The notes under the pieces are model-generated. The model did no database searches. It was not told where the DNA came from and saw only the letters and a list, made by a program, of their open reading frames with translations. Shown piece by piece: positions 1-56,225 of a DNA stretch of 64,000 nucleotides. The first letter of the stretch is position 1. Each line of letters starts with the position of its first letter. Source of the DNA: Hydnum rufescens UP504. Taxonomy: Eukaryota > Basidiomycota > Agaricomycetes > Cantharellales > Hydnaceae. The stretch covers positions 23,107-87,106 of the forward strand of contig MU128927.1 of NCBI GenBank assembly GCA_014904985.1, in the 5' to 3' direction. A program made the translations under genes and the position numbers.

Positions 1-1146
1 AAGAGAATGCCCTTGTATCAAAGCGCTGAGTGGAAGCTTGATTGCGATCACTGCGTCAGCTGCAATGAATGAGTCGCCACAGGTGTCAAGAACAGAATTT
101 GGAATATTCATTCCTGGTTCAATGGAATCATCATCGCATGGCCCGTTTCTATCATCCTCCACCAACTCATCTGCCTTTCGCTTCCTGCCTGCTCCAGCTG
201 GACTCTTTGTTGGTTGAACCTCATTGATCCTGGCAGCCATATCATCAAGGTCTGCCTGCAGAAGCTCGACTGTATTTGGAGAGAAAATCTCTGGGTCCTG
301 GGCACCTGTCTGACCCTCAAAGCCTTTTCTCCAGTCTTTGTCATGGTTGCATTTGAGTTGAAAGTTTGCATCTATGCAAACAATGATAGTGGCCTGAAGA
401 TCAGCCGCATGCCTCCCTCTGAAGCAAAGAGCACAGCATGATTGCAAGTATGCACTTGGACACTCCAGGGCACCATCAACTTTAGTAGGCCTGGTGAAAT
501 TGTGCGCATTCAGATATACTTGAGCTGGGATCAAGGTTTTTTCATTGAGTGCAGGGGTAGGAGGGCGATCAGAGGACAGAGTGGAGTTCAATGATTCACA
601 AAAGAATTGATGATTTTTGTCATCTCTGCCTTCACCAGTCTAACAAGAACTTGATAGTGGGCGAGAGTGTTGGCAAATCATCAATGAAGGGAATCCCAGT
701 TGCAAATTCATGGCCACAAGCCTTTAGATATTTTGTAAGGGTTGCTGCCAGGCTCGTTCATTAGGTGCATATTTACAAGAGATCTGATACAAACTCCAAC
801 ATATCCATGCTCACAGCCAAGTTGGAGCCAATGGAGGGCATGGGAACAATCCCTGGCTCACAAGCTGGATTGCTGCAGGGTGATGAGAGCAAACAACCAA
901 ATCAATGTCCTCCAAATATTCCATATGCACACAAATGATCTTCAGTATGTGATGACACTGCGAACACATACAGGGTTCTATGGAATCAACCTGGGCCCCA
1001 GTGTTCCATTCTCTTTGAAACCTCATAAAAGGATGAATCAGTGATGGGAGGACATCGTCACCCCACCGACGAGCCTGTGCATGTTTCCGCCATGCATGAT
1101 GAGATAGTTTGTCTTGGACAACACATACATTGGCCTCAGGTGCCAT
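1..1146 (-). pseudogene. KDZ-type (Kyakuja-Dileera-Zisupton) transposase relic, partial
   Basis: Read on the minus strand from about 1146 down to the window edge. The upstream part (about 1100-810) has a CxC-like cysteine cluster (CMCSQCHHILKIICVHMEYL) followed by VVCSHHPAAIQLVSQGLFPC, the arrangement seen in the CxC domains of basidiomycete KDZ transposases. About 480-1 reads openly as CALCFRGRHAADLQ, then TIIVCIDANFQLK, a pattern typical of the KDZ core where an Asp begins the catalytic fold. It continues with DPEIFSPNTVELLQ and an acidic, Lys/Arg-rich stretch (GRKRKADELVEDD). Between about 600 and 740 the frame changes at least twice, so it is not an intact gene. The 3' part lies outside the window. 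KDZ elements move DNA by cut-and-paste; this copy is probably dead. Family assignment is from remembered motif patterns. Confidence 0.72.
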
Positions 1147-1539
1147 TTCTGGCTCAAAATTGATGTCTAAGTGGTGGGATTCGATAAATGTTGATCACTC
1201 AGTCACTTTGACGGCAGGAAGATTGGATGTTTGCTGGTTTGACAGTGTAGTAATTACTCCATTTGGCCCTGAGCCTACAACTTCAGCGATTGGATATTTG
1301 GAACGCTGTCATTTGGGATGAAGAGTAGATGAAGAAGAATGGGCAGAGATCTGGGAAGACAATGTGGAGGGAGTAGAACTTGTTTGTTGACAAATCAATC
1401 GTTTTACAGTCGAGTTCATTTTGGATTACTGGCACAATTCTGGGCAGTGAAGCACGAGTAGAATGGGACACAAATAGGTGGGCCATGGTGCAGAACCTTC
1501 GTTAGCGCTGGCAAACATGGGGTGTTAAAAGTGTAGACA

Positions 1540-2175
1540 ACACACAACATGGGCAGGCCATGATTGGTGAGTTGGGATTGGAGTAAGAGCGCAGAACAAG
1601 GAGTGCCCAACACAGGCAGACTGCAATCAGCAAGTTGGTTTGGGGTAAGAACAGAGAGGAGGGTGCCCAATGCAGGCAGACTGTGATCAGCAAGTTGGTT
1701 TGGGGTAAGAACACAGAGAGAGGAGGGTGCCCAATGCAGGCAGGCCGCAATCAGCAAGTTGGTTTGGAGTAAGAACACAGAGGGAGTAGGGTGCCCAATG
1801 CAGGCAGACTGCGATCAGCAAGTTGGTTTGGAGTAGGAACACAGAGGGAGGGTGCCCAATGCAGGCAGGCCGCGATCAGCAAGTTGGTTTGGAGTGAGAA
1901 CACAGAACAAGGAGGGTCCCCAAAGCAGACAGGCTACAATCAGTAAGTTGGTTTGGAGTGAGAGCACAGAACAAGGATGGTGCCCAATGCAGGCAGGCCG
2001 TGATCAGCACGCTGGTTTGGAGTAAGAACACAGAACAAGGTGAGTGCCCAACGCAGGCAGGCTGCGATCAGCAAGTTGATTTGGAGTAAGAAGGCGGAAC
2101 AAGAACTTCGAGAAGGGTGCCCAACACAGGCAGGCTGTGATCAGCGAGTTGATTTGGAGTGAGAATGCAGATGTG
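1540..2175. repeat. 64-bp minisatellite, about 10 copies (first locus)
   Basis: About ten tandem copies of a roughly 61-70-bp unit. Its most constant part is GATCAGCAAGTTGGTTTGGA, with GTGCCCAATGCAGGCAGG and a polymorphic ACACAGAACAAGG spacer. Units differ mostly by transitions and by small length changes in the spacer. The long ORFs reading through it are only a by-product of the repeat. The same unit recurs at 4510-4755. Confidence 0.93.
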
Positions 2176-2709
2176 TAGTGTTGATTTGTAATTTGGATCC
2201 ATCACCACATTCGACTTGGAGGTCACTGAACTCTCTTTGTTCTCACCTCAGTTGAGTCAATAGTACTACCCGGCCTGCCTGAGTTGTGCCATCGACCGAA
2301 TGAGTCCATTGTACAAAACTGAAATGCCCGACCACAATTTGCAGCTGAGGTACTGTTCTGGCCAGCTTGTCTGCCATTGTGCAGAAGACCCCAGCCTCAT
2401 TCATAAACTGATCAAATTTCCCCTCACACGTCATTGATGATTCACTGCAGCAGCCCATTATCACTCCAAAAAACCGGCGACTAGGGGCAGGGGATTTTTT
2501 AGATGTGTGAAGTCTAACCGATGTGGATTCTGGGGTAAGTAACAGGATGTCTTCCCTAGTGTGTTCTAATGGCTATGGTGTTTAGCCTGGTCTGGCCTTG
2601 ATGATGTCGCTGCTACTGGCCCCCTTGCAAGTGATGAACCACCCATCCCGCCTCCTGACTTGTTGACCTCACCCCATCTTCTCTCCCAATCTCCCCACCC
2701 TCCCCCAGT

Positions 2710-2895
2710 GCTTCCCAAGTGGAGACATGTGAGGGAGTCAGGGCCCATCGCTTGGAGGCAGAGAATGCTGCACTTCACATAGAACTTAGTAGTCTTCAGG
2801 GAAAACTCAGTCAATGCAAGGATGACTTAAGTCTTGCAGAAGAGAAATATGATAGATTGGTTGCTGGAATTGGCAGGTTGCTTGCTGTGGACTGA
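2710..2895 (+). CDS. Short coiled-coil ORF, possibly a 3' exon
   Basis: An open frame of 61 codons plus TGA reads ASQVETCEGVRAHRLEAENA and then a clear heptad-like stretch (LHIELSSLQGKLSQCKDDLSLAEEKYDRLVAGIGRLL). It starts immediately after CCCCCAG, which would serve as a splice acceptor. Proline-rich sequence in another frame lies upstream at 2600-2700. No start codon is evident, so it is best seen as a terminal exon or a relic. Coiled-coil character is visible; the function is unknown. Confidence 0.3.
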   Translation, partial: ASQVETCEGVRAHRLEAENAALHIELSSLQGKLSQCKDDLSLAEEKYDRLVAGIGRLLAVD

Positions 2896-3659
2896 TTTTC
2901 ATGGTTTCTGTATTATGCAACGCACCCCTTGCTTACAATCCATGTGTGTGGAAATATATGCTTTACTTTGGATTCGGAGAGCCAGGATGACAGACAAACA
3001 CATATGGTGAACTACAGAGGAAGAAAAAGAAGTGGTCGATGTATGAGAAACCCCCCCCACCCCATCACTGTATCAGCAAGTGTCGCCCATTGGGAATATA
3101 CATGAGGAAAAAATGTATGTTGGAGAAGGTCTTGGTTCAGTTGTGCTGTCGGGACCACAAAGGGGAACCATGTTAACCATGAAAACATCACAAAAGAAAT
3201 GAAACTGACCTTGTTGACTATCAATATCCATCCCATTGTTTGACCCTCATTCCTCGCTATACTCTAATTCAACATGTGTATTCCCTGATGGGACTGAAGT
3301 GCAGAAGACAGTATGGACAATAGGAACAAAGCAAGGATGCACCAGTGACTGGCATATGGCTTGATGCATGGCTTCCTGCCTTACTTGTCCACACTCCAAA
3401 GCTGGTCTGCTCAGTGGACTGAGTACATAGTTTGTTGGGGATGTCCACAAGGTATCGAGAGTTAACTCTTGTGAGAAGTAGCCTGTAAGGGAGATGTGAA
3501 GGGATTGGAGCGGATGAGAGGTTGATGATGAATCCGTCAACACAGGGGAAGGTTGTTGAGGTAGTCCATGTGTTGAGGGTGGTGCTGACCACAAGGATTG
3601 CAGGGGTGGCTGGGCGCAGCATTCCCATAACTCGATTCCGACCACCGCGAACATGCTCA

Positions 3660-24550: not shown

Positions 24551-25379
24551 GAGGAGAGGAGGTACAAGGGATAAGGAAGATGTTTGTGGGGTTGAGGAGA
24601 TGAGTTTTGATCTTCTGTCAGGGAAACACTGCCATCAAAGCCACAAACAGAAAGAGGAAAGAGATTAATTAACCACATGCTATCACAGTGGGAATCCTGA
24701 GAGATTGAAACTGGTGATCCCCCAACTGCAAAGGGCTATAAATACTATTTCCTGCACACAGCCACCAGCCTTCCAGAGCCTTCCGCTGTCTTCCATAACC
24801 TTCCGGATCCTCCTAGAGTGCCGGCTCCACAGACCATCAGCCAGCCTCCACAGCCACCATCACTAAGCCTCACTAAGCTGATGCAGCCATGTTACGAATC
24901 CTGTGTGCACCTCCACATGGCTATGCCCCAACTTCCATATGTATCCCCCTTAGTGTATGTTAGGGTATTGCACGGGGTTTTGAAACCCGCGGGTTTTGAC
25001 CCCATGGGGGAGATCCCCACGGGGCGGGAGTAACAATGTGGACCCATGGCTAAAACCCACCAAGAACCCGCCAACCCCGGCAATATGTACCAAGGGTTTG
25101 AATCAGTCCATGCCATAGATTGATAGTCATCTAACATGGTATGGTGCAATTGTATTGCACCAGAACTGCTAAGTTACTAGCTAATATTTTACCTCTGGTG
25201 CAGTAACTTACTGTTACCATAACTATGTCATTATTTATCACTATTTACTATTATATATACATTGTATAGCAGTAGGGGCTCAGGGAGCTCAGGATGTGGT
25301 TGGTTGTTCAGGGGGGGGAGGTTCTAGTACGGGTTTTCATTGTTGAGGGTTTGGTTGGTTGTTCATTTGGGACTTGGGC

Positions 25380-26530
25380 AGTCTCTGTCGCATGATCTAG
25401 GATCAAAGATATATACATCAGATTGAAAAATGAAACATACATTCTAGTACCACACACCCACCCCAGTGGGTGTGGTACCTCGTTTTATTTCGACAGCAGG
25501 GTCTGTACAGGCTCGTGCCCAGTTTTTCGTATAGGGGTCTCGCAGGTGCAGGGGGTTCGGCAGGTGGTGTCAGTCGGATGATCTAGAATAAGTCAAAAGT
25601 GACGCAAAAAGGGCAGCTTGCACTGCCCTATTTGCGCCACTTACATATACAGAATTAATTTTAAAAAAAAACCTTGTAGTACCACACCCGCTCTAGCAGG
25701 TGTGGTACTCGTATTGTGCCGCTCATGTCAATCAAGGGGTCCATATGGGCTCGTGTCCGGTTTTTTCGTATGGGGGTCGCATGGGGTTTTGTTCGAATCA
25801 ATTCACAGGGGCGGGGGATGATACCATGGTCTCACGCGGATTAGGAACATCTACAGTTTAAAAAGAAAAATGTTAGTTGCTTAAGTCGTAAAACCAGCAC
25901 AAAAAGAACCGCTTTCACTCTTTTTGTGTGGGTGTATCTACCAAGGGGGGGGAACTCACCTTATATAGTACCGCACACCTGCCGCAGCAGGTGTGTGGTA
26001 TTCCTTTTTGTTTGGGGGTTTTCATTTACTGGGTGGGTGTTCATTTTGTGGGGTGCCGCAGTGTGGGCATTGGGTCAGGTGTTTGCTCGGGGCTTGTGTG
26101 GATGATGGGGAGACCTATCATAAAGTAATATGTTAGTTAAGAATAATAATAATAACAGCGCAAAAGAGCAGCTTTCGCTGCTCTTTTTGCGCCGCTGTAG
26201 GTATTGCAATCAAATGAAAAGTTACCTATGTTACCACACACCTGCCGCGGCAGGTGTGTGGTACTCGTTCAGCGGATCATCGTTTGGTGGGTTATCATCT
26301 TGAAAACCGCCATTTGGCATGTTCTCATTCCACGGATTGTTGTTTGGGGGGGTGTTCATTTGCCGGTTCTGGTTCAGGCGATGACCTAGGATAATGTCAG
26401 TTAAAAATTTAAAACCAACGCAAAAAGAGCAGCCATTGCTGCTCTTTTTGCATGGATGTATGTAAAGGATAAATACTTACCTTGTATGACCACACACCTG
26501 CCACAGCGGGTATGTGGTCCTGCTTTCTGT
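25380..26530 (-). repeat. Element A left arm: five exon/intron modules with paired hairpins
   Basis: Read on the minus strand. Exon-end hairpins (ACCACACACCYGC..GYGGGTGTGTGGT type) are at about 26490-26520, 26236-26266, 25972-26005, 25680-25708 and 25449-25479. Most are followed within about 5-12 nt by a donor such as AAG|GTAAGT or AAG|GTGAGT. Intron hairpins (GCAAAAAGAGCAG..CTGCTCTTTTTGC type) are at about 26419-26452, 26158-26193, 25897-25930 (degenerate) and 25601-25636. Branch-like CTAAC/CTGAC and acceptors (CCTAG, ATAG, GTAG, TCTAG) follow at about 26389, 26117, 25850 and 25590. The last intron has no hairpin. Exon bodies are Pro/Asn/Glu-rich in one frame. Confidence 0.85.
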
Positions 26531-26599
26531 TGTTTGATCCCTTGGTGGTTGTAGAATGACTTTCGATGCTGGCAAATGCCGATATCAAGACCGAGGAAA

Positions 26600-26847
26600 G
26601 TTGACTTCAACCAGGCACGTATTGATGCGTGGAATTCACCTGATTACAACATTCCTATCTACGAGCCTGGTCAGGAGGACATTGTCCGCCAAGCTCGCGG
26701 TCACAACCTCTTCTTCTCCACTAATGGAGAATCTCCTCGATTAATGCACTTTCAGCCATTTGTGAAGCCACAGGTGCTAATATCGATGAGGCTTCCAATG
26801 CCATTGGCATGGATTCACATGTGGGGCCCAAATTCCTGGGTGCCTCA
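26600..26847 (+). pseudogene. Captured UDP-glucose 6-dehydrogenase fragments (element A)
   Basis: The first piece encodes VDFNQARIDAWNSPDYNIPI, YEPGQEDIVRQARGHNLFFST, matching the N-terminal NAD-binding region of UDP-glucose 6-dehydrogenase (PIYEPGL..FFST signature). After about 26716 the frame shifts to [40 protein letters not shown], which matches the central helix region of the same enzyme. Roughly the 150 residues that separate these segments in the full enzyme are missing, and the two pieces are out of frame, so no enzyme can be made. It ends at GTAAACT, which now forms the donor of the first array intron. UDP-glucose dehydrogenase makes UDP-glucuronate in the cytosol. Element C has the same chimera, so capture preceded duplication. 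Confidence 0.82.
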
Positions 26848-28110
26848 GTAAACTTACTGTATGTTTTTTTTTCTTTTTTCTTTTTTCTTTTTTACTAATG
26901 TATTTATTATTCTAGGTCATCGCATCGCGCTCGATCGACAGACCCACACAAACCCCCACCAGCACCCGCCAGAACTGACGACGATGATACCGGAAAAGAG
27001 GAGGCACCACACACCCACTGCGGCGGGGGTGTAGGTAAGTGTATTTTTTTTTGTTCTTTACTAATGTATTTATTATTCTAGGTCACACTCGATCGACAGA
27101 CCTGCACGAATCCCGCACCAGCACCCGCCAGAACCGACGATGATGATTACTGGGGCGAAATATGCGAGTGCGCGCAGCCACGTGAGACCCCAATGATTGA
27201 CTATCTGCCACCAATAAAATGAGGCCTCAAATATGGTGCCACACACCCGCTGAAGCAGGTGTGTGGCAATATTAGGTGAGTATTTTCTTCATGGGGTGTA
27301 CCACGACACCAAAAGAGCAGCACCAGCTGCTCTTTTGGCATTGCTTGTATTATTTTTTTACTAATGTATCCACTATTTTAGGCTCTTTCTCCCTCCCCAA
27401 AACCCCGCCCCAATCAAAGCAGAGACAATGCCTATGGCAAAATACGGAGCACGCAGCCACCCAGACCCCAACCCCCGAGTATCAGTGAGCTATAACACGA
27501 CAACAAATCAGATACAGCACCCACACACCCGCTTCGGTGGGTGTGTGGTGACATCAGGTATGTCTAATCCCACCGGTGCCAAAAGAGCAGCAGGAGCTGC
27601 TCTTTTGGCACCCCTCTGTTTTCTTTTTTTTACTCATATTATTTATCATTGTTCTAGGTCCCTTCCCTAAGCGAAAACCCGCCCAACAACGACATGCACG
27701 AGCCCTCAACACAAAATTTGATGCGCAGCCGCCCAAGCCCCAAGTCTTGAACATGACAATGGACTTAATCTCATACCACACACCCGCCGCGGTGGGTGTG
27801 TAGTAATAGTTGTAAGTTCAACAGCACCCAAAGAGCAGCAGTAGCTGCTCTTTGGGCACTACTTCTGTTTTTTCTAAAACTAATGTATTCTTAATCATTC
27901 TGGGTGTCCTCTCGATCTATGAAACCCCACGACAAGAACAGAGCCAAGGTCCAAGGCAAAACACGGACCTGCGCAGCCACCTGCAACCCGATATGAACAT
28001 CCGATCAAAACCCGCACGAATGCCACCCTATCCTTGGAGCCACACATCCTGTTGCCCCTCCTTGCATGAAAACTCACCCGATGAGAACATGGCCAAGGCC
28101 CCCACGTGAA
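26848..28110 (+). repeat. Element A right arm: exon/intron modules with paired hairpins
   Basis: Introns: 26848-26915 (GTAAACT..TACTAATGTATTTATTATTCTAG, no hairpin); 27035-27081 (GTAAGT..TTCTAG, no hairpin); 27276-27381 (GTGAGT, hairpin CCAAAAGAGCAGC/GCTGCTCTTTTGG at 27309-27338, TACTAAT, TTTTAG); 27558-27656 (GTATGT, hairpin about 27577-27612, TTCTAG); and from 27812 (GTAAGT, hairpin about 27833-27860, TACTAAT-like, but the acceptor reads TTCTGG). Exon-end hairpins precede the donors at about 27005-27034 (degenerate), 27238-27268, 27519-27550 and 27776-27806. Exon lengths are about 120-195 nt. The lost final acceptor is shared with element C. Confidence 0.88.
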
Positions 28111-28554
28111 ATCTGACTTATATTGTATATAATTATAATAAATAAATAAATAAATAAATAAATGTTAAATAATCTTCTGGCCCTCTTACTATGGGCCATA
28201 TACAGAATAGGATGAGGATATTGTCCCATGGGTTTCCCGCGGTTCTCCTTGGGTTTTTCAACCCTGTCATGTATCCCGCAGCTTCTACCCCCGTGAGTCA
28301 CGGGGCGGTTTTCAACCCCGCGGGGCGGGATGTCCTAAATTCCCCCGTGGGACCCCATGCAATAGCCTATTCCACACATCCAATGTATTTCATTTTTGGA
28401 TATAGTCAGTGTTATAATATTCTAAGCCTATTCCACCTATTTTGGTCCTAATGTGGAGTGTTTTACACTTATGGTAGGCTTTTGTTCCCTTTTTGCCTGA
28501 AAAGGGAGTTCAATGCCTAGAAGTAAACAAAATAAGCTGATTATTGACACATAT

Positions 28555-44014: not shown

Positions 44015-44832
44015 TTAACCATTGACAACACCATCAATGGAAGACCCAGCGCCACCCCAAGTAGTTCCACTAGATTGACCACCAACAGAACTTGCTCCAC
44101 CTGGATTTTCAAAAGTATCTGTTACAGGGCCATCATCATCACTGGGCTCATCGATGAATTCAGCAGACATCGGATGCTTAGGGCCTGTCTTCTTTTTCTT
44201 CCGTGAGGGGCCATCACCTTGAGAGGCCTGCTTCCTGGGCCCAGAAGCACCACCTGCAACGGAAGTCCCATTGGCACTGTTGGCATCGGATTCGTTTGGC
44301 TCCCCCAGTCCATCCACTTGAGCAACAGTCAGGAGTGGGTTATTGAATTGATCAGAGATGATTACAGTGTCACTGGGAAGCTTCCCATTATTCTCCTGGG
44401 TGATATGCTTGAGCTGAGTAACTCAGACCTTTGTTGAATCATCTGATGGCTGGAAAAAGGTACACCAAAGTTTCTTCCAACTCTCTGTTCAGACTACAGA
44501 GACATCAAGGGACAAGAGACTTGGAAATTCAGATTCCGCAACCCAATTCTCAATCTTCAACTCATTGTTGGCAAGGAATTGGGGGAGACTTGCCCAAGGT
44601 ATACACAGTACCCGACTGATCAGAGGAGTCAGAAGGTTATTGAGCTCCTCTGAAATCTCCTTCCACATCAGATGCATAGACTTTGGAATCTTTTGCTTCT
44701 GGTTTTGGTGTAAAAGATGTTGCCCCTGATAGACCAGGATGTGGGAATGAATCATCTTCAATGACGTACTGTCTTTTGGGAAAGACAAATTTAGCCAGTC
44801 CTTCATCAAACCAGTCAGCCATAATTGTATAT
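44015..44832 (-). pseudogene. gene3 (second copy), 3' part, separated by element B
   Basis: Minus strand from the element B target site. MADWFDEGLAKFVF corresponds to MAAWYNSNFTM of the plus copy. After a frame change near 44640, LLTPLISRVLCIPWASLPQF and NELKIENWVAESEFPSLLSL match FLPFVKMTKFPWTNLAKVLV and LIISNFVPNDEFPNFSMSL. The end (44317-44015) is Lys/Ser/Gly-rich with RKKKKTGPKHP and DEPSDDDGPV, as in the plus copy's KRKKAAVK and DESEDAD. It is the rest of the gene whose 5' part is 49812-51190. Confidence 0.65.
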
Positions 44833-45239
44833 CTAGTTAGGCCCTTTTGCCTTGCTTTTATTCAATCTAAGAGCAGGTTTTTAGGTGGGGGCCCCTGGGG
44901 CCCACTGGGTGATTTCACGGCATGAGACAAGGGGCCCCATGGAGCCCCTAGGGGCCCCTGGGGGCCCCTCTCACCTTAGACTAGGACTTAGAGATTCTCA
45001 GACAATGGCAGGAAGTCATGGTCTTTCACAGTCTGACTTAGAGATTCTCAGACTTGCAGGACAGCAGGCCATACGGGCTTATCGGGGATAGTATGTTCCA
45101 TTTATAATTATTTATTTATTATCACTATATTATACACATCCTACCCTGGGTCAGTGGGGTTTCAGCAGTCCCATTATTCTTATTATTTATTTATTTATTT
45201 AAATACTGTATCTGGTGTGGTACTTAGTAGAAATCCAAA

Positions 45240-47231
45240 GAAAAAAAAAACTACTTAGTAGCACCACACACCTGCTCTAGTGGGTGTGTGGTACTGTCCA
45301 TAGAAATAAAAGAACAAAAAATTAAAATAAAAACTATCTAGTAGCACCACACACCTGCTTGGGTGGGGGTGTGGTACCGGGGGTGTGGCTTGGCACTTCA
45401 CCATTGGGCGCGGGTTGTGGGTTGCCATTGGGGTGGGTCATTGTTTTGGATCCTAGAATCATAGTGTATATTAGTAAAAAAATTCGAAGTAACACAAAAG
45501 GAGCAGCTTGCGCTGCTCCTTTGGCATGGTTGTACTTATAGAGGGTGAATACTTACTTTAAAAATTATCACACCTACCGAAGCAGGTGTGGGGTTCATCC
45601 GGGGCTTCTGTGGCCTCATGTTGTGTTCTGTCATTTGCGGGTTTCATTTGGGGGATGGGTTGCTGTTGTTGCATATTTATTTGGCGGGATTGCGAGTCTT
45701 GATTGAGGGTTTAGAAGAATACCAATGATAATAAGTAACAAGTTAGTAAAAAAAGAAAAACCACACAAAAGGAGCAGCACATGCTGCTCCTTTTGTGCGG
45801 TCATACTTAAACAGTAAATACTTACATTAAAAATTATTATCACACCTGCCGAAGCAGGTGTGGGGTTCATCCGGGGCTTCTGTGGCCTCCCATGTTCTGT
45901 CATTTGTGGGTCTTGTTTGGGGGGTGGGGGTAGATCAAAACCTAGGATAAGGAATACTATGTTAGTAAAAAAACAAAAAGAAAAGCTATGCCAAAGGAGC
46001 AGCATATGCTGCTCCTTTGGTGCGATCATATTTATTTACCTTAAAATTACCACACCCGCCAAAGTGGGTGTGGTTCATCTTGGGGTTCTGTGGTCTTGTG
46101 TCATGTGTTACCGTTCCCGGGATTTGTCTGGTGGGTGTCCCTTGGCCGGTCGTCATTGGTGGGCTTCGTTTGGCATTGGTTTTGGCAGCTTGGCAGGTCA
46201 CATTGTCATTTCCGGGGGGGAGGGGTTCATGTGGTGGGCAGCAAGGTGATAACCTAGAATAAATAAATCGTGTGTTGTTAAAAAATTAAAACGAACGCAA
46301 AAAGAGCAGCTTTCGCTGCTCTTTTTGTGTTGTCGGGGGTACAACACCTTGTATAGAACCACACACCCACTACTGCGGGCGTGTGGCTCTTCTCATCGCA
46401 TGGCACATCGTCGTTTGCGTGTTGTTGTTCCAGGGGGGGCTTGCTTCATGGGTTTTCATTTGTGATGATACCTAGAATAAAAAAAAATTAGTTAAAAATT
46501 AAAAGTGATGAAAAAAGAGCAGCTTTTGCTGCTCTTTTTGCATCATGTTGGGGGTACACTACACACCTTGTATAGAACCACACACCTGTGACTGCGGGTG
46601 TGTGGTTCTTCTTGTCGTGGCACGTCATCGTTCACAGGGGTGTTGTTGTCCTGGGGGGGGGCTTACTTTGTGGGTGTTCATTTGTGACAATACCTAGAAT
46701 AAAAAATAATTAGTTAAAAAATTAAAAGTGATGCAAAAAGAGCAGCTTTCGCTGCTCTTCTTGCATTGTTAGGGGTACATACCAAGTATAGAACCACACA
46801 CCTGCTACTGCAGGTGTGTGGCTCATCTCTTTGTGTGGCACATCATTTGCGGATCCCCTTTGCAGGCGTGTTGGGGTTGCTTCGTGGGTCTTCATTTGTG
46901 GCAATACCTAGAATAAAATATTATTAGTTAAAAGATGTAAAGCTACACAAAAAGAGCAGCTTGGGCTGCTCTTTTTGTGTGGCTGTATCTATTGGGGGGG
47001 GACTCACCTTAAATAGTACCACACCCACCACAGCAGGTGTGGTTCCTGGGGCCACTCATTGGGTGGCCTGTTGCTCGTCCTGGTTTTGATCTGGAATAAT
47101 CAAGCTACGTTAGTATAAAAATTCACAGCGGCACAAAAAGAGTAGTTTGCACTACTCTTTTTGCGCTATTGTAGGTGCTGAGACAAAACTTACCTTATGA
47201 CCACACACCCACATCAGTGGGTATGTGGTCG
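45240..47231 (-). repeat. Element B left arm: about ten modules with paired hairpins
   Basis: Exon-end hairpins at about 47199-47230, 47018-47043, 46793-46822, 46577-46608, 46359-46386, 46049-46074, 45839-45863, 45568-45591, 45346-45375 and 45263-45292. Intron hairpins at about 47131-47167, 46946-46981, 46729-46766, 46507-46543, 46296-46329, 45987-46022, 45762-45801 and 45492-45524. Most modules show a donor (AAG|GTAAGT, AAG|GTGAGT), a branch-like TAACTAA/TTACTAA, and an acceptor TTCTAG on the minus strand. Stems vary with kept pairing, for example CAAAAAGAGTAGT/ACTACTCTTTTTG and CCAAAGGAGCAGC/GCTGCTCCTTTGG. The last two exon hairpins, 84 bp apart, have no intron hairpin between them. Confidence 0.88.
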
Positions 47232-47244
47232 TGTGGTTGTGGTT

Positions 47245-47320
47245 GTGTGCTGGGGCTGCTGTTGCTGCTGTTGCTGCTGCTGTTGCTGTTGTTGCTGTTG
47301 CTGTTGTGTTGTGGCCATGC
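47245..47320 (-). repeat. CAG/CAA trinucleotide run in the first left-arm exon of element B
   Basis: The plus strand reads (CTG/TTG)n for about 65 bp. On the minus strand, the reading direction of the array, it is CAACAGCAACAG. In the frame continuing from LPALNF it gives Thr/Ala-rich sequence; another frame gives polyglutamine. The right arm lacks it, so it arose after the palindrome formed or was lost on the other side. Confidence 0.85.
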
Positions 47321-47358
47321 GGTTGCCTTTCTGTTGCAGGGTGTGGCTGCATAGTTGC

Positions 47359-48014
47359 GAAATTCAATGCCGGCAATTGCCAGTACTCAAGAAGTGCCCA
47401 AGTGCTGGCGCTACAAGCATGGCACACATCCATAGCAAGCATGTAGATATGGAATAAATAGTATATAATAAATATTTTTCCAATAAAATGCAAAGAAAAA
47501 GAAGATAATGGGTCAGAGCTCAATAAGGCATGAGATGGTTAATTGAAAAGTGGATTGGGTCAGTTCTATGCATCAGAATTGGCCCAAATTTAAATATAGT
47601 GATGGCATATATACACCCTACACAGGCGATTAATTATCTCAGATGATTCTTGCATTTTCCAAGTTTTCATGCCTTCAATTCCCTAAATAGGGAATTGAAG
47701 GCATGAAAACTTGGAAAATGCGAGAATCATCTGAGATAATTAATCGCCTGTGTAGGGTGTATATATGCCATCACTATATTTAAATTTGGGCCAATTCTGA
47801 TGCATAGAACTGACCCAATCCACTTTTCAATTAACCATCTCATGCCTTATTGAGCTCTGACCCATTATCTTCTTTTTCTTTGCATTTTATTGGAAAAATA
47901 TTTATTATATACTATTTATTCCATATCTACATGCTTGCTATGGATGTGTGCCATGCTTGTAGCGCCAGCACTTGGGCACTTCTTGAGTACCAGCAATTGC
48001 CGGCATTGAATTTC
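47359..48014. repeat. Large near-perfect palindrome, 328-bp arms
   Basis: Symmetric about 47686.5 in CCCTAAATAGGG. The left arm begins GAAATTCAATGCCGGCAATTG and the right arm ends CAATTGCCGGCATTGAATTTC. Only a few mismatches were seen. Each arm carries the same outward-reading frame (MDVCHACSASTWALLEY then QQLPALNF or WQLPALNF) that leads into the first exon of its array, so both arrays share an identical 5' region. The GCCGGCATTGAA end also occurs at the centres of A and C (GCCGGCATCGAA in C). Confidence 0.95.
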
Positions 48015-48069
48015 TCATCTTCCTTCTCCTCTCCACAACCACAACAGGTAACCGCCTGGAAAGGCAAGT

Positions 48070-49650
48070 GTGTGACCACACACCCGCCACTGTGGGTGTG
48101 TGGTCATATGGTGTGTTTTTTTACTTGTAGATACAATGGTGCAAAAAGAGCAGTGTAAGCTGCTCTTTTGTGCTTCTTTGAATCTTTTACTAACATATCT
48201 TGTATTCTTCTAGATTGAGGCCTGGGGTCCAAGGCACGACAAAAACCTGCGAAACAAGGGCCCAAATGGCAATGCCCCAAACGAAGATGCACCAAATGAT
48301 GCAACATACAGCACTGTGCCAACGACGCGATGTATGGCACCACGCCAATGATGTGACACATGGTACCGTGCCAACAATGCGACATACAGCACCATGCCAA
48401 TGATGTGACACATGGTACCGCGCCAACGACGCGACATACGGCACCACACCAATGACATGACACATGGCACCATGCCAATGACATGACATATGGCACCACG
48501 CCCACAACGCAATGCGTGAGAACCCCCGTAACCCCACCCATCGACACCCGAATGATGGGCCCCATACAAACTGCCACACCCATGGGCTGGAGGATGGCCC
48601 AGTACCCCACACCCGCTGCACAGCAGGTGTGGGGTACTACAAAGTAAGACTTCTTTTTTATTTTTTATTCTTGTGGTGCAAAAAGAGCAGTGTAAGCTGC
48701 TCTTTTTGCACTGCTTTGGAATATTTTACTAATGCCTTTATTTATTTCAGATTGAGGCCTCATCCAACAATGAGAGCCCAAACAGCAATGTGATGCATGG
48801 AAACGCAACACAGCAACGCGATATATGGCAATGCGACACATGGCAACGCGCCATGGCAACACGCCAAACGCCAATGCGCCAATGATGCAACATATGGCAC
48901 TGCACCAAATGAGGGTGCAACTGTGTCAAATAACGCCCCAGGAACCACACACCCGCCATGGCAGGTGTGTGGTTCTATACTAGGTGAGTTCCTGCCCCCC
49001 CCAGTGCCTACAGCCACACAAAAAGAGCAGCAAAAGCTGCTCTTTTTGTGTGATGTTTAATTTTTAACTAATTTAAATGTCATCTTGTCTAGGTCTCAAG
49101 TCCTCCTGCAAACGAATACTGATGCAAAACCCCCCGCCACCCCACTTATCAATGCCCAAATGATGGGGCACAGAGAAGACCCATATGAATGGTCATACGG
49201 ATGACCTGGAGTCCATGGTCCCAGTACCCTACACCCCTGCAGTGGGTGTGGGTACTACAAGGTATGTTTTATTTTTATTTTTATTCCTTATTCTTGTGGC
49301 GCAAAAAGAGCAGCATAAGCTGCTCTTTTTGTGCTGCATTCATGTTTAACTAATTCATCAACTACTTCTCTAGATATTGGACCAGAACCTGCACGAATCC
49401 CTGACCACAGCCCCACTGAACGACATGCCCTGAATGAAAACTGGGAACAAAACTGCACATGACCACACAAACAAAAACCAGGAATGAAGCCACGAAGGCC
49501 CGCATGAATGAAAACCGTGAGCGACACCCCCTTGAGGGATCACCCAAATGGAACCCAGGCCCCAAGTGGGGTGAATTCCAGGTAAGTACTTTATCTTTAG
49601 CCACACTTGCACAAGAAGAGCAGCCTCTGGCTGCTCTTCTTGGGCACAGG
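48070..49650 (+). repeat. Element B right arm: five modules with paired hairpins
   Basis: Exon-end hairpins at about 48074-48105, 48607-48634, 48943-48973 and 49229-49256. Intron hairpins at about 48136-48174, 48676-48714, 49015-49051, 49297-49335 and 49605-49645. Donors: ATG|GTGTGT, AAA|GTAAGA, TAG|GTGAGT, AAG|GTATGT, CAG|GTAAGT. Branch and acceptor: TTACTAACATATC..TTCTAG, TTACTAATG..TTTCAG, TAACTAATTT..GTCTAG, TAACTAATTC..CTCTAG. The last hairpin has a donor before it but no acceptor before the element end. Exon bodies hold Asn/Thr/Ala/Pro-rich repeats such as NDATYGTAPN and NATHGNAP. Confidence 0.88.
48285..48505 (+). repeat. Minisatellite of about 30-33 bp in a right-arm exon of element B
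   Basis: Seven or so degenerate units of GGCACCATGCCAATGATGTG / ACACAT, lengthening this exon to about 390 nt compared with 120-200 nt elsewhere. A shorter relative (GGCAATGCGACACATGGCAA) is in the next exon, so the exon bodies themselves are built from short repeats. Confidence 0.82.
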
Positions 49651-49811
49651 GTGAGCCCCACTGGGTGAGCCTATGGATGTATATAATAATAATAATAATA
49701 AATTAATAATGCATAATCTGGCAGGGGCCCCTTGATTGTATTGCAGGGGCCCCCGGGAGCCCCCACATGTAAAGACCTAGTTAGATATGATAAATGCAAT
49801 GCTCATGATAT

Positions 49812-51190
49812 CTAATATGGTGCAGAAAAGTGACTGACCAGCCTGTCCTTCATTGCTGGTGAGCTGGTGAATAGAGCATTCTGTTTTGAAGCCATCTTGT
49901 CAGTAATGCTGCTGACAATTCCACAGAACCCATGGATGTTCATAGTGGCCATCCATTTCAAGTCATCCTTCCAGTGCTTTGTAGTCTGCTTAATGACTTT
50001 GCCCATCATGGCCGGTGAGAGCACAATATCAAAAGCTTGGGCTGCCTTTGAGGCATTGTGCTGATCCACAAGCTCCTTCGATTTCTTTTTCCATGCATTG
50101 GAGTCTTCACCACCATGTTCAGCAATGAGCTCACAATAGGCTGGCTGTATAACTTTTTCCACATACTCATGATGGGGATGGTCTGGCTCGGGGTCCTTCT
50201 TGTACAAGGCCTGATATGCATTCCACGGATTCCCAGCACTTTGCCGTTCTCTCGTGCTTATTGCAAGGTTCCCAATCTGCATCACAGACTCAAGAGGCCT
50301 GTCCCACTCTTTTGCCTTGCACTCAAGCTCACGGTTCATGGATTTGACAATGCCTCTGATCTCAGCAACTTGTTCATCTGTAAATGGTCCACCCTGTGAT
50401 TTGATTTGCACAGTGTCACCCTCCTCGGCAACCAAGTCGTCATCCTTGACATCTGGATTCCCATCATTTGGATTTGGTGGATCCAAAATGACCGAATTTT
50501 CGCGCTGATGATCCAGACCAGAAAACTCAGCCTCACGATCAAAATCCCCAAAGAATGGTGAATTGCTGAATGTGTGAGATGAGGTATGACTTGAGGGCTG
50601 GGGAGACCAAGTGGTGGCCTGAGCAGGGGACCGACTGCAAGGATGACCATGAGAGTGATTGCGAGATTGAGCGTGAGGAATACAGGGGGATTGAGCATGA
50701 GGAATATGGGGGATTGAGCACAAGGAATACAGGGGGATTGAGCATGAGGAATATGGGGGGATTGAGCACAAGAAAGACCAGGAAATGGAGCAGGAGAACC
50801 AGCAGGAGATGGGGAGTGGCCAGCAGGATTCGAAGAATAAGGAATGGACTGTAGTAGAAGTCAATTTAAAGCAATCTAGGAAATAAAATGGATAGGAAAC
50901 GCACTGTAGGTACACTGGGATGGTTTCTAGATCGAGGTGGAGCAAGCTGAATTGACATTTGTTGGTGCGATCACAATGACAGAACATCAATAAACCACTC
51001 ATTACACTGAGGGACAGGGCACGTAATGGGGGTGCTGGAATGTTTGCCAGTTGTCTCAGAAGAGTCTCTCATCTGGGGCCCACCAGCAGATTCACTGCTT
51101 GCTGAAGAGGACCAAGCTATTCAGCCTGCTGGGGTGGCAGCAGGCCTGGTGGTCCTTTTTTGGGCTTGATATGTCTTAGGTGGCATATCA
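49812..51190 (-). pseudogene. gene3 (second copy), 5' part, interrupted by element B
   Basis: Probable start MPPKTYQAQKRTTRPAATPA near 51186, then an in-frame TGA, SSSASSESAGGPQMRDSSET and, further down, a Ser/Pro/Ile-rich repeat. The conserved part reads ELECKAKEWDRPLESVMQIG, GNPWNAYQALYKKDPEP, YVEKVIQPAYCELIAEHGGE and LKWMATMNIHGFCGI, matching the plus-strand gene3 at 14.6-15.1 kb. The frame stops near 49812 after VSHF, just before the element B target site; the remainder is at 44015-44832. The insertion may lie in or beside an intron, because the last few codons before it do not resemble the plus copy. Confidence 0.7.
50675..50780 (-). repeat. 27-bp coding minisatellite within gene3 second copy
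   Basis: Four to five units of GGGGGATTGAGCATGAGGAA / TA on the plus strand. On the minus strand they encode (S/L)CSIP(P/L)YSS repeats. The plus-strand gene3 has no counterpart, so it is copy-specific. Confidence 0.85.
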
Positions 51191-52817: not shown

Positions 52818-53319
52818 TAGGCTATTGCACGGGGTCCCACGGGGGAATTTAGGACATCCCACCCTGCAGGGTTGAAAACCCGCCCCCATGACTCACGGGG
52901 GTAGAAGCCGCAGGATACATGACAGGGTTGAAAAACCCGAGGAGAACCTGCGGGAAACCCACGGGACAATATCCTCATCCTATTCTGTATATGGCCCATA
53001 GTAAGAGGGCCAGAAGATTATTTAACATTTATTTATTTATTTATTATAATTATATACAATATAAGTCAGATTTCATGTGGGGGCCTTGGCCATGTTCTCA
53101 TCAGGTGAGTTTTCATGCAAGGAGGGGCAACAGGATGTGTGGCTCCAAGGATAGGGTGGCATTTGCATGGGTTTTGATCAGGTGTTCATATTGGGTTGCA
53201 GGTGGCTGCGCAGGTCCGTGTTTCGCCTTGGACCTTGGCTCTGTTCTTGTCGTGGGGTTTCATAGATCGAGAGGACACCCAGAATGATTAAGAATACATT
53301 AGTTTTAGAAAAAACAGAA

Positions 53320-54335
53320 GTAGTGCCCAAAGAGCAGCTACTGCTGCTCTTTGGGCACCGTTGAACTTACAACTATTACCACACACCCACCGCGGCAGGT
53401 GTGTGGTATGAGATTAAGTCCATCGTCATGTTCAAGACTTGGGGCTTGGGCAGCTGCGCATCAAATTTTGTGTTGAGGGCTCATGCGTGTCATTGTTGGG
53501 CGGGTTTTCGCTTAGGGAAGGGACCTAGAACAATGATAAATAATATGAGTAAAAAAAAGAAAACAGAGGGGTGCCAAAAGAGCAGCTCCTGCTGCTCTTT
53601 TGGCACCAGTGGGATTAGACATACCTGATGTCACCACACACCCGCCGAAGTGGGTGTGTGGGTGCTGTATCTGATTTGTCATCATGTTATAGCTCGCTGA
53701 TACTCGGGGGTTGGGGTCTGGGTGGCTGCGCGCTCTGTATTTTGCCATAGGCATTGTCTCTGCTTTGATTGGGGTGGGGTTTCGGGGAGGGAGAAAGAGC
53801 CTAAAATAGTGGATACGTTAGTAAAAAAAATAATACAAGCAATGCCAAAAGAGCAGCTGGTGCTGCTCTTTTGGCATTGTGGTACACCCCATGAAGAAAA
53901 TACTCACCTAATATTGCCACACACCTGCTTCAGCGGGTGTGTGGCACCGTATTTGAGGCCTCGTTTTATTGGTGGCAGATAGTCGATCATTGGGGTCTCG
54001 CGTGGCTGCACGCACTCGCATATTTTGCCCCGGTAATCGTCATCGTTGGTTCTGGCAGGTGCTCGTGCGGGATTCGTGCGGGTCTGTTGATCGAGTGTGA
54101 CCTAGAATAATAAATACATTAGTAAAGAATGAAAAAAAATACACTTACCTACACCCCCGCTGCAGTGGGTGTGTGGTGCCTCCTCTTTTCCAGTATCATC
54201 ATTGTCGGTTCTGGTGGGTGCTGGTGGGGGGTTTGTGTGGGTCTGTCGATCGAGTGCGATGCGATGACCTAGAATAATAAATACATTAGTAAAAAAAGAA
54301 AAAAGAAAAAAGAAAAAAAACATACAGTAAGTTTA
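53320..54335 (-). repeat. Element C left arm modules
   Basis: Minus-oriented counterpart of A's right arm. Exon-end hairpins at about 54150-54180 (degenerate), 53918-53946, 53633-53663 and 53380-53408; intron hairpins at about 53841-53880, 53570-53610 and 53322-53362. Donors and acceptors are at the same relative places as in A, including the changed last acceptor (reads TTCTGG on the minus strand). Confidence 0.87.
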
Positions 54336-54584
54336 CTGAGGCACCCAGGAATTTGGGCCCCACATGTGAATCCATGCCAATGGCATTGGAAGCCTCATCG
54401 ATATTAGCACCCATGGCTTCACAAATGGCCGAAAGTGCATTAATCGAGGAGATTCTCCATTAGTGGAGAAGAAGAGGTTGCGACCGCAAGCTTGGCGGAC
54501 AATGTCCTCCTGACCAGGCTTGTAGATAGGAATGTTGTAATCAGGTGAATTCCATGCATCAATATGTGCCTGGTTGAAGTCAAC
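54336..54584 (-). pseudogene. Captured UDP-glucose 6-dehydrogenase fragments (element C)
   Basis: Same chimera as in A: VDFNQAHIDAWNSPDYNIPI, YKPGQEDIVRQACGRNLFFS, then out of frame [13 protein letters not shown]. Differences from A (Arg to His, Glu to Lys, Arg to Cys) are all explained by single transitions. The identical breakpoint shows both elements descend from one capture event. Confidence 0.8.
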
Positions 54585-54659
54585 TTTCCTCGGTCTTGAT
54601 ATCGGCATTTGCCGGCATCGAAAGTCGTTCTACAACCACCAAGGGATCGAACAACAGAA

Positions 54660-55745
54660 AGCAGGACCACATACCTGCTGCAGCGGGTGTGTGGTCATAC
54701 GAGGTAAGTATTTATCCTTTACATACATCCATGCAAAAAGAGCAGCAACGGCTGCTCTTTTTGCGTTGGTTTTAAATTTTTAACTGACATTATCCTAGGT
54801 CATCGCCTGAACCAGAACCGGCAAATGAACACCCCCCCAAACAACAATCCGCGGAATGAGAACACGCCAAATGGCGGTTTTCAAGACGATAACCCACCAA
54901 ACGATGATCTGCTGAACGAGTACCACACACCCACTGCGGTGGGTGTGTGGTAACATAGGTAACTTTTCGTTTGATTGCAATACCTACAGCGGCGCAAAAA
55001 GAGCAGCGAAAGCTGCTCTTTTGCGCTGTTATTATTATTATTCTTAACTAACATATTACTTTATGATAGGTCTCCCCATCATCCACACGAGCCCCGAGCA
55101 AACACCTGACCCAATGCCCACACTGCGGCACCCCACAAAACGAACACCCACCCGGTAAATGAAAACCCCCCAAACAAAAAGGAATACCACACACCCGCTG
55201 TGGCGGGTGTGCAGTACTATATAAGGTGAATTCCCCCCCCTCGGTAGATACACCCGCACAAAAAGAGCGAAAGTGGTTCTTTTTGTGCCAGTTTTACGAC
55301 TTAAGCAACTAACATTTTTCTTTTTAAACTGTAGATGTTCCTAATCCGCGTGAGACCACCATATCATCCCCTGCCCCTGTGAATCGATTCGAACAAAACC
55401 CCATGCGACCCCCATATGAAAAAACCGGACACGAGGCCATATGGACCCCTCGATTGACACGAGCGGCACAATACGAGTACCACACCTGCTAGAGTGGGTG
55501 TGGTACTACAAGGTTTTTTTTAAAATTAATTCTGTATATGTAAGTGGCGCAAATAGGGCAGCACAAGCTGCCCTTTTTGCGTCACTTTTGACTTATTCTA
55601 GATCATCCGACTGACACCACCCGCCGAACCCCCTGCACCTGCGAGACCCCCATACGAAAAACCAGGCACGAGCCCGTACAGACCCCACTGTCGAAATAAA
55701 ACGAGGTACCACACACCCGCTGGGGCGGGTGTGTGGTACTAGAAT
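54660..55745 (+). repeat. Element C right arm modules
   Basis: Exon-end hairpins at about 54668-54697, 54919-54951, 55187-55216, 55477-55507 and 55708-55740; intron hairpins at about 54733-54766, 54990-55025, 55256-55290 (one arm decayed) and 55544-55586. Donors include GAG|GTAAGT at 54703 and AAG|GTGAAT near 55224. Acceptors include ATCCTAG near 54799 and ATTCTAG near 55602. The second exon reads openly as Asn/Pro-rich sequence (NTPPNNNPRNENTPNGG) ending in HTPTAVGVW, encoded by the hairpin itself. Confidence 0.87.
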
Positions 55746-56225
55746 GTATGTTTCATTTTTCAATCTGATGTATATATATTTGATCCTAGATCATGCGACA
55801 GAGACTGCCCAAGTCCTGAATGAACAACCAACCAAACCCTCAACAATGAAAACCCATACTAGAACCTCCCCCCCCTGAACAACCAACCACATCCTGAGCT
55901 CCCTGAGCCCCTACTGCTATACAATGTATATATAATAGTAAATAGTGATAAATAATGACATAGTTATGGTAACAGTAAGTTACTGCACCAGAGGTAAAAT
56001 ATTAGCTAGTAACTTAGCAGTTCTGGTGCAATACAATTGCACCATACCATGTTAGATGACTATCAATCTATGGCATGGACTGATTCAAACCCTTGGTACA
56101 TATTGCCAGGGTTGGCGGGTTCTTGGCGGGTTTTAGCCATGGGTCCACATTGTTACTCCCGCCCTGCGGGGATCTCCCCCGCAGGGTCAAAACCCATGGG
56201 TTTCAAAACCCTGTGCAATACCCTA

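Follow-up and report, generated by a model that had tools for sequence, protein, structure and literature searches.

Outward-facing arrays of hairpin intron/exon modules in gene-capturing hAT-type transposons of Hydnum rufescens

Pack-TYPE elements of plants, including Pack-hAT, have terminal inverted repeats and 8-bp target duplications, lack a transposase and carry captured host coding DNA centrally, as far as the available part of their description goes (PMC8903248). A family of elements in the basidiomycete Hydnum rufescens UP504 resembles them in these traits; two of its members, A and C, lie in the stretch of 64,000 nucleotides analysed here (C19:23107-87106, contig MU128927.1; hereafter the window, numbered from its first base). 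Unlike Pack-hAT as presented in that part, A and C consist internally, for the most part, of two outward arrays of predicted introns and exons with hairpins rather than of host DNA. With the hAT superfamily the family shares the 8-bp duplications, and a partner with the same ends contains a hAT dimerisation region. We know of no hAT element with a tandem array of structured introns past its transposase. Among Kyakuja-Dileera-Zisupton (KDZ) elements, Zisupton makes 8-bp duplications and Kyakuja 7-bp duplications without inverted repeats, according to the accessible text (PMC12730594); a third element of the window, B, and two further loci, L022 and L023, are similar to KDZ in their right end and in duplications of 8 bp or 7 of 8, whereas the ends of A and C are different. 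Introners, introner-like elements and sister stwintrons are likewise many-copy spliceosomal introns with internal symmetry, yet in the available portions of those works single introns enter genes (PMC9860276, PMC8469720), while in H. rufescens tandem noncoding intron-plus-exon units lie within DNA transposons. As a non-autonomous hAT that captures genes, the carrier is of a known kind; for the cargo, a conserved, tandem, outward, noncoding hairpin intron/exon unit in elements with two kinds of ends, no description was found in searches of an open-licence library.

The terminus TAGGSTATTGCAYGGGG is present exactly at both ends of A (24961 on the plus strand, 28369 on the minus strand) and at 52818 and 56225 of C, with one mismatch at 56225. 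In the genome-wide searches, covering 63.2 Mb in 539 contigs, it occurred 98 + 95 times with at most one mismatch, compared with 0 + 2 times for the reversed control. The termini reported in a first-pass annotation of the window are thus confirmed, as are the near-equal lengths of A and C and the 8-bp target duplication on C, which is exact (Table 1). Full-length matches to A (query 1-3409) were found in at least 10 places, A and C among them, a lower bound as only the best candidates were scored; an eleventh place matches query 1-3378. These 10 copies diverge from one another by 2.7 to 5.7%, and exact 8-bp duplications flank seven of them (L002, L003 and L006-L010, C included), being absent at A itself (L001), whose flanks are GTGTATGT and TTCCACAC, and at L004 and L005. 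Elsewhere, ends without a matching duplication were recorded at L017, L018, L020, L024, L027, L021 and L028. Copy number, duplications and the existence elsewhere of a transposase-bearing partner agree with the non-autonomous family proposed at first. Two of the copies, L005 (G000:C111:2158-5562) and L004 (16628-20020), stand in opposite orientation and share the duplication-like flank gccaagga in inverted form, as if recombination between copies had flipped the intervening stretch. Among the 10 copies 720 of 889 differences are C-to-T or G-to-A, and the substitution rate is 0.167 at CpG vs 0.0025-0.0052 at other C, a bias of the kind that marks methylated, decaying transposons, as these copies appear to be.

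The search for a partner carrying a transposase, suggested together with the copy count, led to an element of ~6 kb at C68:210649-216688 (hereafter C68), whose left end is the right end of A and whose right end is the left end of A. Between these ends one frame matches a hAT transposase in Pfam (PF05699, 2.5e-9); four other frames gave no Pfam match, and none of the 90 PF05699 matches listed falls inside A. The terminal repeats of hAT elements follow the consensus T/C A A/G N G, and the TAGGG / TAGGC repeats of the A/C family fit a terminus of this kind. The hAT-like nature claimed for A and C is supported on sequence grounds, because C68 has both of their ends together with a hAT transposase, and by the 8-bp duplications in 7 of the 10 copies. 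C1 and C16 also hold a transposase of the C68 type, flanked on one side by a TAGG terminus; on C1 the two are 1229 bp apart vs 1188 bp in C68. Beyond the 3' end of its transposase, and in the same orientation, C68 carries an array of hairpin modules, and on C1 exon hairpins likewise lie downstream of the transposase 3' end. The right flank of C68 resembles a retroelement pol, judged by eye.

A KDZ transposase had been favoured first as the mover of A, being located 4.6-4.7 kb inside a TAGG end at C19, C163 and C50. This candidate was ruled out: the outer flank of that TAGG end is common to 17 of the 17 copies fetched, which implies that an A-family remnant sits inside a KDZ element that multiplied later, and the KDZ element differs from A in its right end. 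The KDZ-transposase element has a right end of its own, ...TGGCTGACCAGCCTG; 22 other places end at this point (query 914-919), and the flanks beyond it differ in the three copies read. KDZ transposase domains gave at least 154 matches in the genome. One element of this type, L045 (G000:C19:124849-132162), holds a TAGG-family remnant; this has frames like those of malate dehydrogenase and a single module intron, whose hairpin has lost its inner part.

Between its two arrays, A contains two pieces of a host gene on C35 which, to judge from its sequence, encodes UDP-glucose dehydrogenase (UGDH), in line with the gene-capturing character first ascribed to these elements (Table 1). The source pieces are 572 bp apart in the host gene, and their joint in A falls in mid-exon on both sides, where two bases have been added and the frame shifts. 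A joint in mid-exon rules out acquisition via mRNA and points to capture at the DNA level, leaving a non-coding fusion. In older relatives on C354, C87, C109 and C418 the two UGDH pieces likewise form one run (74-75% to A), so the capture is older than the recent burst.

The two palindrome types reported for the arrays were found as described. Read in sense, a module runs from exon hairpin through donor, intron hairpin and branch site to acceptor; the core of the exon hairpin is CCACACACCYRC N4 GYRGGTGTGTGG and that of the intron hairpin AAAGAGCAGC N4 GCTGCTCTTT, with a variable outer stem. Genome-wide, an exact stem match with a 4-base loop of any sequence was counted 3507 times for the intron hairpin and 3455 times for the exon hairpin vs 0 for the reversed patterns used as controls. 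A collection of 207 modules from 30 sources (28 loci, C68 and element B) was examined for splice signals. The donor lies 21 nt past the loop of the exon hairpin (quartiles 21 and 21) and fits GTRNGN in 171 of the 207, including 142 with GTAAGT, GTGAGT or GTATGT; branch site plus acceptor are present in 161, compared with 14/207 in the reversed-sequence control, whose donor count (195/207) is unusable, the exon-hairpin arm having not been skipped. Donor, then branch site and acceptor, the order of a spliceosomal intron, were found in 133/207 modules in sense vs 8/207 for the same intervals in antisense, in keeping with the constant order noted at the first pass. Introns of this kind are predicted to be spliced. 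Their median length is 106 nt, or 67 minus the hairpin, and the median donor-to-branch distance is 87, or 48 minus the hairpin (n=125 modules). A further 68 introns that follow an exon hairpin have no detected hairpin (length quartiles 46, 96 and 109 nt), and the long ones probably hold hairpins missed by the detector, which labels some intron hairpins as exon hairpins (e.g., 49015-49052). Of two introns put forward earlier as examples, 27276-27381 stands, while 27558-27656 ends instead at 27657 and has no CTRAY branch site; in A the final intron, with its donor at 27812, shows no AG at the expected acceptor.

Conservation was assessed in 73 divergent representatives picked out of 193 modules. 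Mean pairwise identity reaches 0.76-0.79 in the exon stem and 0.89 in the intron stem vs 0.30-0.47 in ungapped spacer and 0.39-0.45 in the loops, and in a gapped alignment, where single spacer columns vary widely, GT is kept at 0.94 and 0.97, the branch A at 1.00 and AG at 0.89 and 0.87. Of the distinct hairpins, 164 of 174 in the exon class and 150 of 154 in the intron class have a loop of 4 nt, and each class shows 38 loop sequences. Double changes amount to 89 cells in the intron stem vs 36.8 (sd 8.2) in arm-shuffled controls and to 78 vs 34.2 (sd 4.4) in the exon stem; counted by affected pairs, the exon hairpin (7) does not exceed the shuffles (6.5). When the register is slid, 28-60% of cells pair, vs 90-93% in the true register. 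The divergent intron/exon hairpin arrays proposed for A and C are upheld by this conservation of stems and splice signals in divergent modules, and by orientation: of the 22 bounded elements, 21 have their detected modules pointing away from the centre. Of these, 19 are divergent and two one-directional, namely C68 and B; in B the right array escaped the detector by the mislabelling mentioned, although that array is visible. L016, with mixed orientation, is the sole exception.

The cargo is not peculiar to the A/C family, since it also occurs beyond the transposase of the autonomous element and inside KDZ-like ends. The earlier idea of a tandem intron/exon unit amplified as cargo is supported. 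Element B has the ends CAAACCAGTCAGCCA and CAGGCTGGTCAGTCA; similar ends are present in L022 and L023, which are 93% alike and of which one has an exact and the other a 7-of-8 duplication. The right end of these three, near CAGGCTGGTCAGCCA, is common to the KDZ-transposase element, whose left end was not found in a further 3 kb searched upstream, and for this reason they are termed KDZ-like rather than KDZ. Between its two outward arrays B is centred (47382-47991) on a near-perfect palindrome, whose arms of ~300 bp enclose a 4-base loop. A third module-array family, which has GTTACTAAGGATATATCA at its ends and no matching duplication, is represented by L021 (1035-6279) and L028 (1208-5997).

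Table 1. Features of elements A, B and C, in window coordinates
Feature	Position	Strand	Remarks
Element A, non-autonomous, gene-fragment-capturing, hAT-type	24961..28369	+	3409 bp; without matching target duplication
Left terminus of A	24961..24977	+	inner sequence is the counterpart of the right end of C68
Left array of A, outward-reading	25453..26523	-	
Exon hairpins, left array	25453-25474, 25678-25709, 25967-26002, 26232-26263, 26484-26523	-	
Intron hairpins, left array	25603-25636, 26162-26187, 26414-26457; near 25897-25929	-	the one near 25897-25929 degenerate
Predicted intron, 109 nt	25851..25959	-	donor GTGAGT, branch CTAAC; degenerate intron hairpin
Predicted intron, 111 nt	26115..26225	-	donor GTAACT, branch CTAAC
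Predicted intron, 95 nt	26386..26480	-	donor GTAAGT, branch CTGAC; exon hairpin before, intron hairpin within
Captured host UGDH piece 1	26600..26726	+	93% to G000:C35:71936-72062
Captured host UGDH piece 2	26729..26846	+	93% to G000:C35:71246-71363; other reading frame
Right array of A, outward-reading	27007..27863	+	
Exon hairpins, right array	27007-27034, 27233-27272, 27521-27548, 27774-27805	+	27007-27034 degenerate
Intron hairpins, right array	27304-27343, 27575-27612, 27820-27863	+	
Predicted intron without hairpin, 47 nt	27035..27081	+	donor GTAAGT, branch CTAAT
Predicted intron with hairpin, 106 nt	27276..27381	+	donor GTGAGT, branch CTAAT
Predicted intron with hairpin, 100 nt	27558..27657	+	donor GTATGT, acceptor TAG, no CTRAY branch site; read by eye
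Right terminus of A	28353..28369	-	counterpart of the left end of C68
Element B, hairpin-module arrays inside KDZ-like ends	44807..49845	+	exact target duplication TCCTTCAT at 44799-44806 and 49846-49853
Element C, second copy, opposite orientation	52818..56225	-	3408 bp; target duplication AGTGCAAC

The explanation that we prefer, to which as a whole we assign a probability of roughly 0.4, is that hAT elements moved in trans carry a module which acts as RNA, is spliced and evades silencing. A and C would have been moved by a C68-type hAT transposase acting on the same two ends, and their interior comprises two outward noncoding units of a tandemly amplified intron/exon module. The array probably originated as the 3' tail of a C68-type transposase gene, because in C68 it lies past the transposase 3' end in the same orientation, and it may have reached other element families later, for which nested insertion would be the simplest route. 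The three splice signals, donor, branch site and acceptor, would be kept for the splicing of an outward transcript, in which the intron hairpin may fold out ~40 nt and give an intron of ~106 nt an effective length of ~67 nt that splices well. In the accessible parts of the respective reports, better splicing accompanies a shorter structural branchpoint distance in Saccharomyces cerevisiae (PMC2536676), and transposon RNAs that are spliced poorly become templates for siRNA in Cryptococcus neoformans (PMC5851062); a cleanly spliced transposon transcript would then evade spliceosome-coupled RNA silencing like that of Cryptococcus. We favour the modules as splicing aids since the hairpin shortens the distance from donor to branch site and since these precedents exist in yeast and C. 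neoformans.

Several observations weigh against this explanation. By the patterns used, 74 of the 207 modules miss at least one splice signal, and C68 itself, like the loci named above, lacks a matching target duplication. In the 10 recent copies of A, exon hairpins are not better preserved than other non-CpG sites (0.0100 vs 0.0074 changes per site and copy; intron hairpins, 0.0051), a pattern that we read as constraint on the jumping lineage followed by free decay of its copies. Folding is nearly strand-symmetric, with median z values of -6.9 and -6.6 on the two strands for 57 representatives. Compared with shuffles, neither the donor (openness 0.40 vs 0.43) nor the branch site (0.52 vs 0.47) is clearly more open, and the idea that the two hairpins expose the 5' splice site is unsupported, donor openness being no higher than in shuffles. 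G.U exceed A.C mismatches by 266 to 193 over all distinct hairpins, and the representatives give 56 to 43 within pairs 1-13, a difference too weak for selection on the RNA strand. As judged from mismatch types and folding, which fail to decide the strand, the hairpins may act as RNA or as DNA.

For the hairpins, then, a role at the DNA level is a live rival, although as an account of the modules we consider it somewhat unlikely. The modules would be palindromic repeats kept by template switching, which makes quasi-palindromes perfect, or by binding of a protein (e.g., the transposase), promoting array growth, and the splice-like signals an unused legacy of the founder. Near-perfect stems with a 4-nt loop of free sequence, tandem arrays of variable size and the near equality of hairpin strength and mismatch types on both strands are what such repeats would look like; the donor, branch site and acceptor, conserved at fixed places in divergent modules whose spacers are not and far commoner in sense than in antisense, are left unexplained. 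That the array limits its element, its transcripts feeding small-RNA or decay pathways through processing of hairpin introns or exons to small RNAs or through nonsense-mediated decay of the transposase mRNA by introns past its stop codon, is quite improbable: the position of the array beyond the transposase and a weak, sub-threshold likeness to microRNA precursor families (E 0.09-0.72) speak for it, whereas no Rfam family was found at gathering score, non-autonomous copies without transposase retain arrays at both ends, and the stems, of only 13-20 bp, are short for Dicer.

Self-copying introner-like introns, with the arrays as places where they pile up, are a very improbable source of the modules, even though fungal introner-like elements also have inverted repeats or a predicted stable structure, as stated in the available part of PMC8469720. 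Among the 3507 intron-hairpin sites, the first 50 distinct ones listed, on C1 and C2, include 46 in clusters, and two of the other four have exact exon hairpins within ~1 kb, and the copies occur as an intron plus exon unit, not as lone introns. Arrays made of the exons of a repeat protein are scarcely credible, in spite of an open frame in 28 of 49 internal exons vs ~18 in shuffles, as exon lengths modulo 3 are evenly distributed (16, 17 and 16), 21 of the 49 are closed in all three frames (shuffles ~31, antisense 24) and the open frames are scattered relative to the exon hairpin (14, 11 and 6), so that the exons do not look coding. A protein search for relatives with an array frame of C68 found one protein, P0001, predicted from a metagenome contig of 1487 bases (62% match), which indicates that a relative of the module exists elsewhere.

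A bolder extension of the preferred explanation, which we hold to be doubtful, is that the module is a selfish, noncoding, splicing-dependent RNA cassette that rides unrelated DNA transposons because it turns their outward transcripts into clean substrates of the spliceosome and in this way shields them from silencing. With transposon-multiplied introns in thousands of copies, whose splice signals and two hairpins are kept in noncoding sequence, the idea of splicing as protection becomes directly testable in H. rufescens, and the system allows one to ask how one cargo reaches elements with different ends. It also offers, for studies on the interplay of structure and splicing, hairpin introns that occur naturally in very large numbers. 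If the selfish-cassette proposal were true, the modules would constitute a transferable anti-silencing cargo acting at the RNA level rather than the trait of one transposon family.

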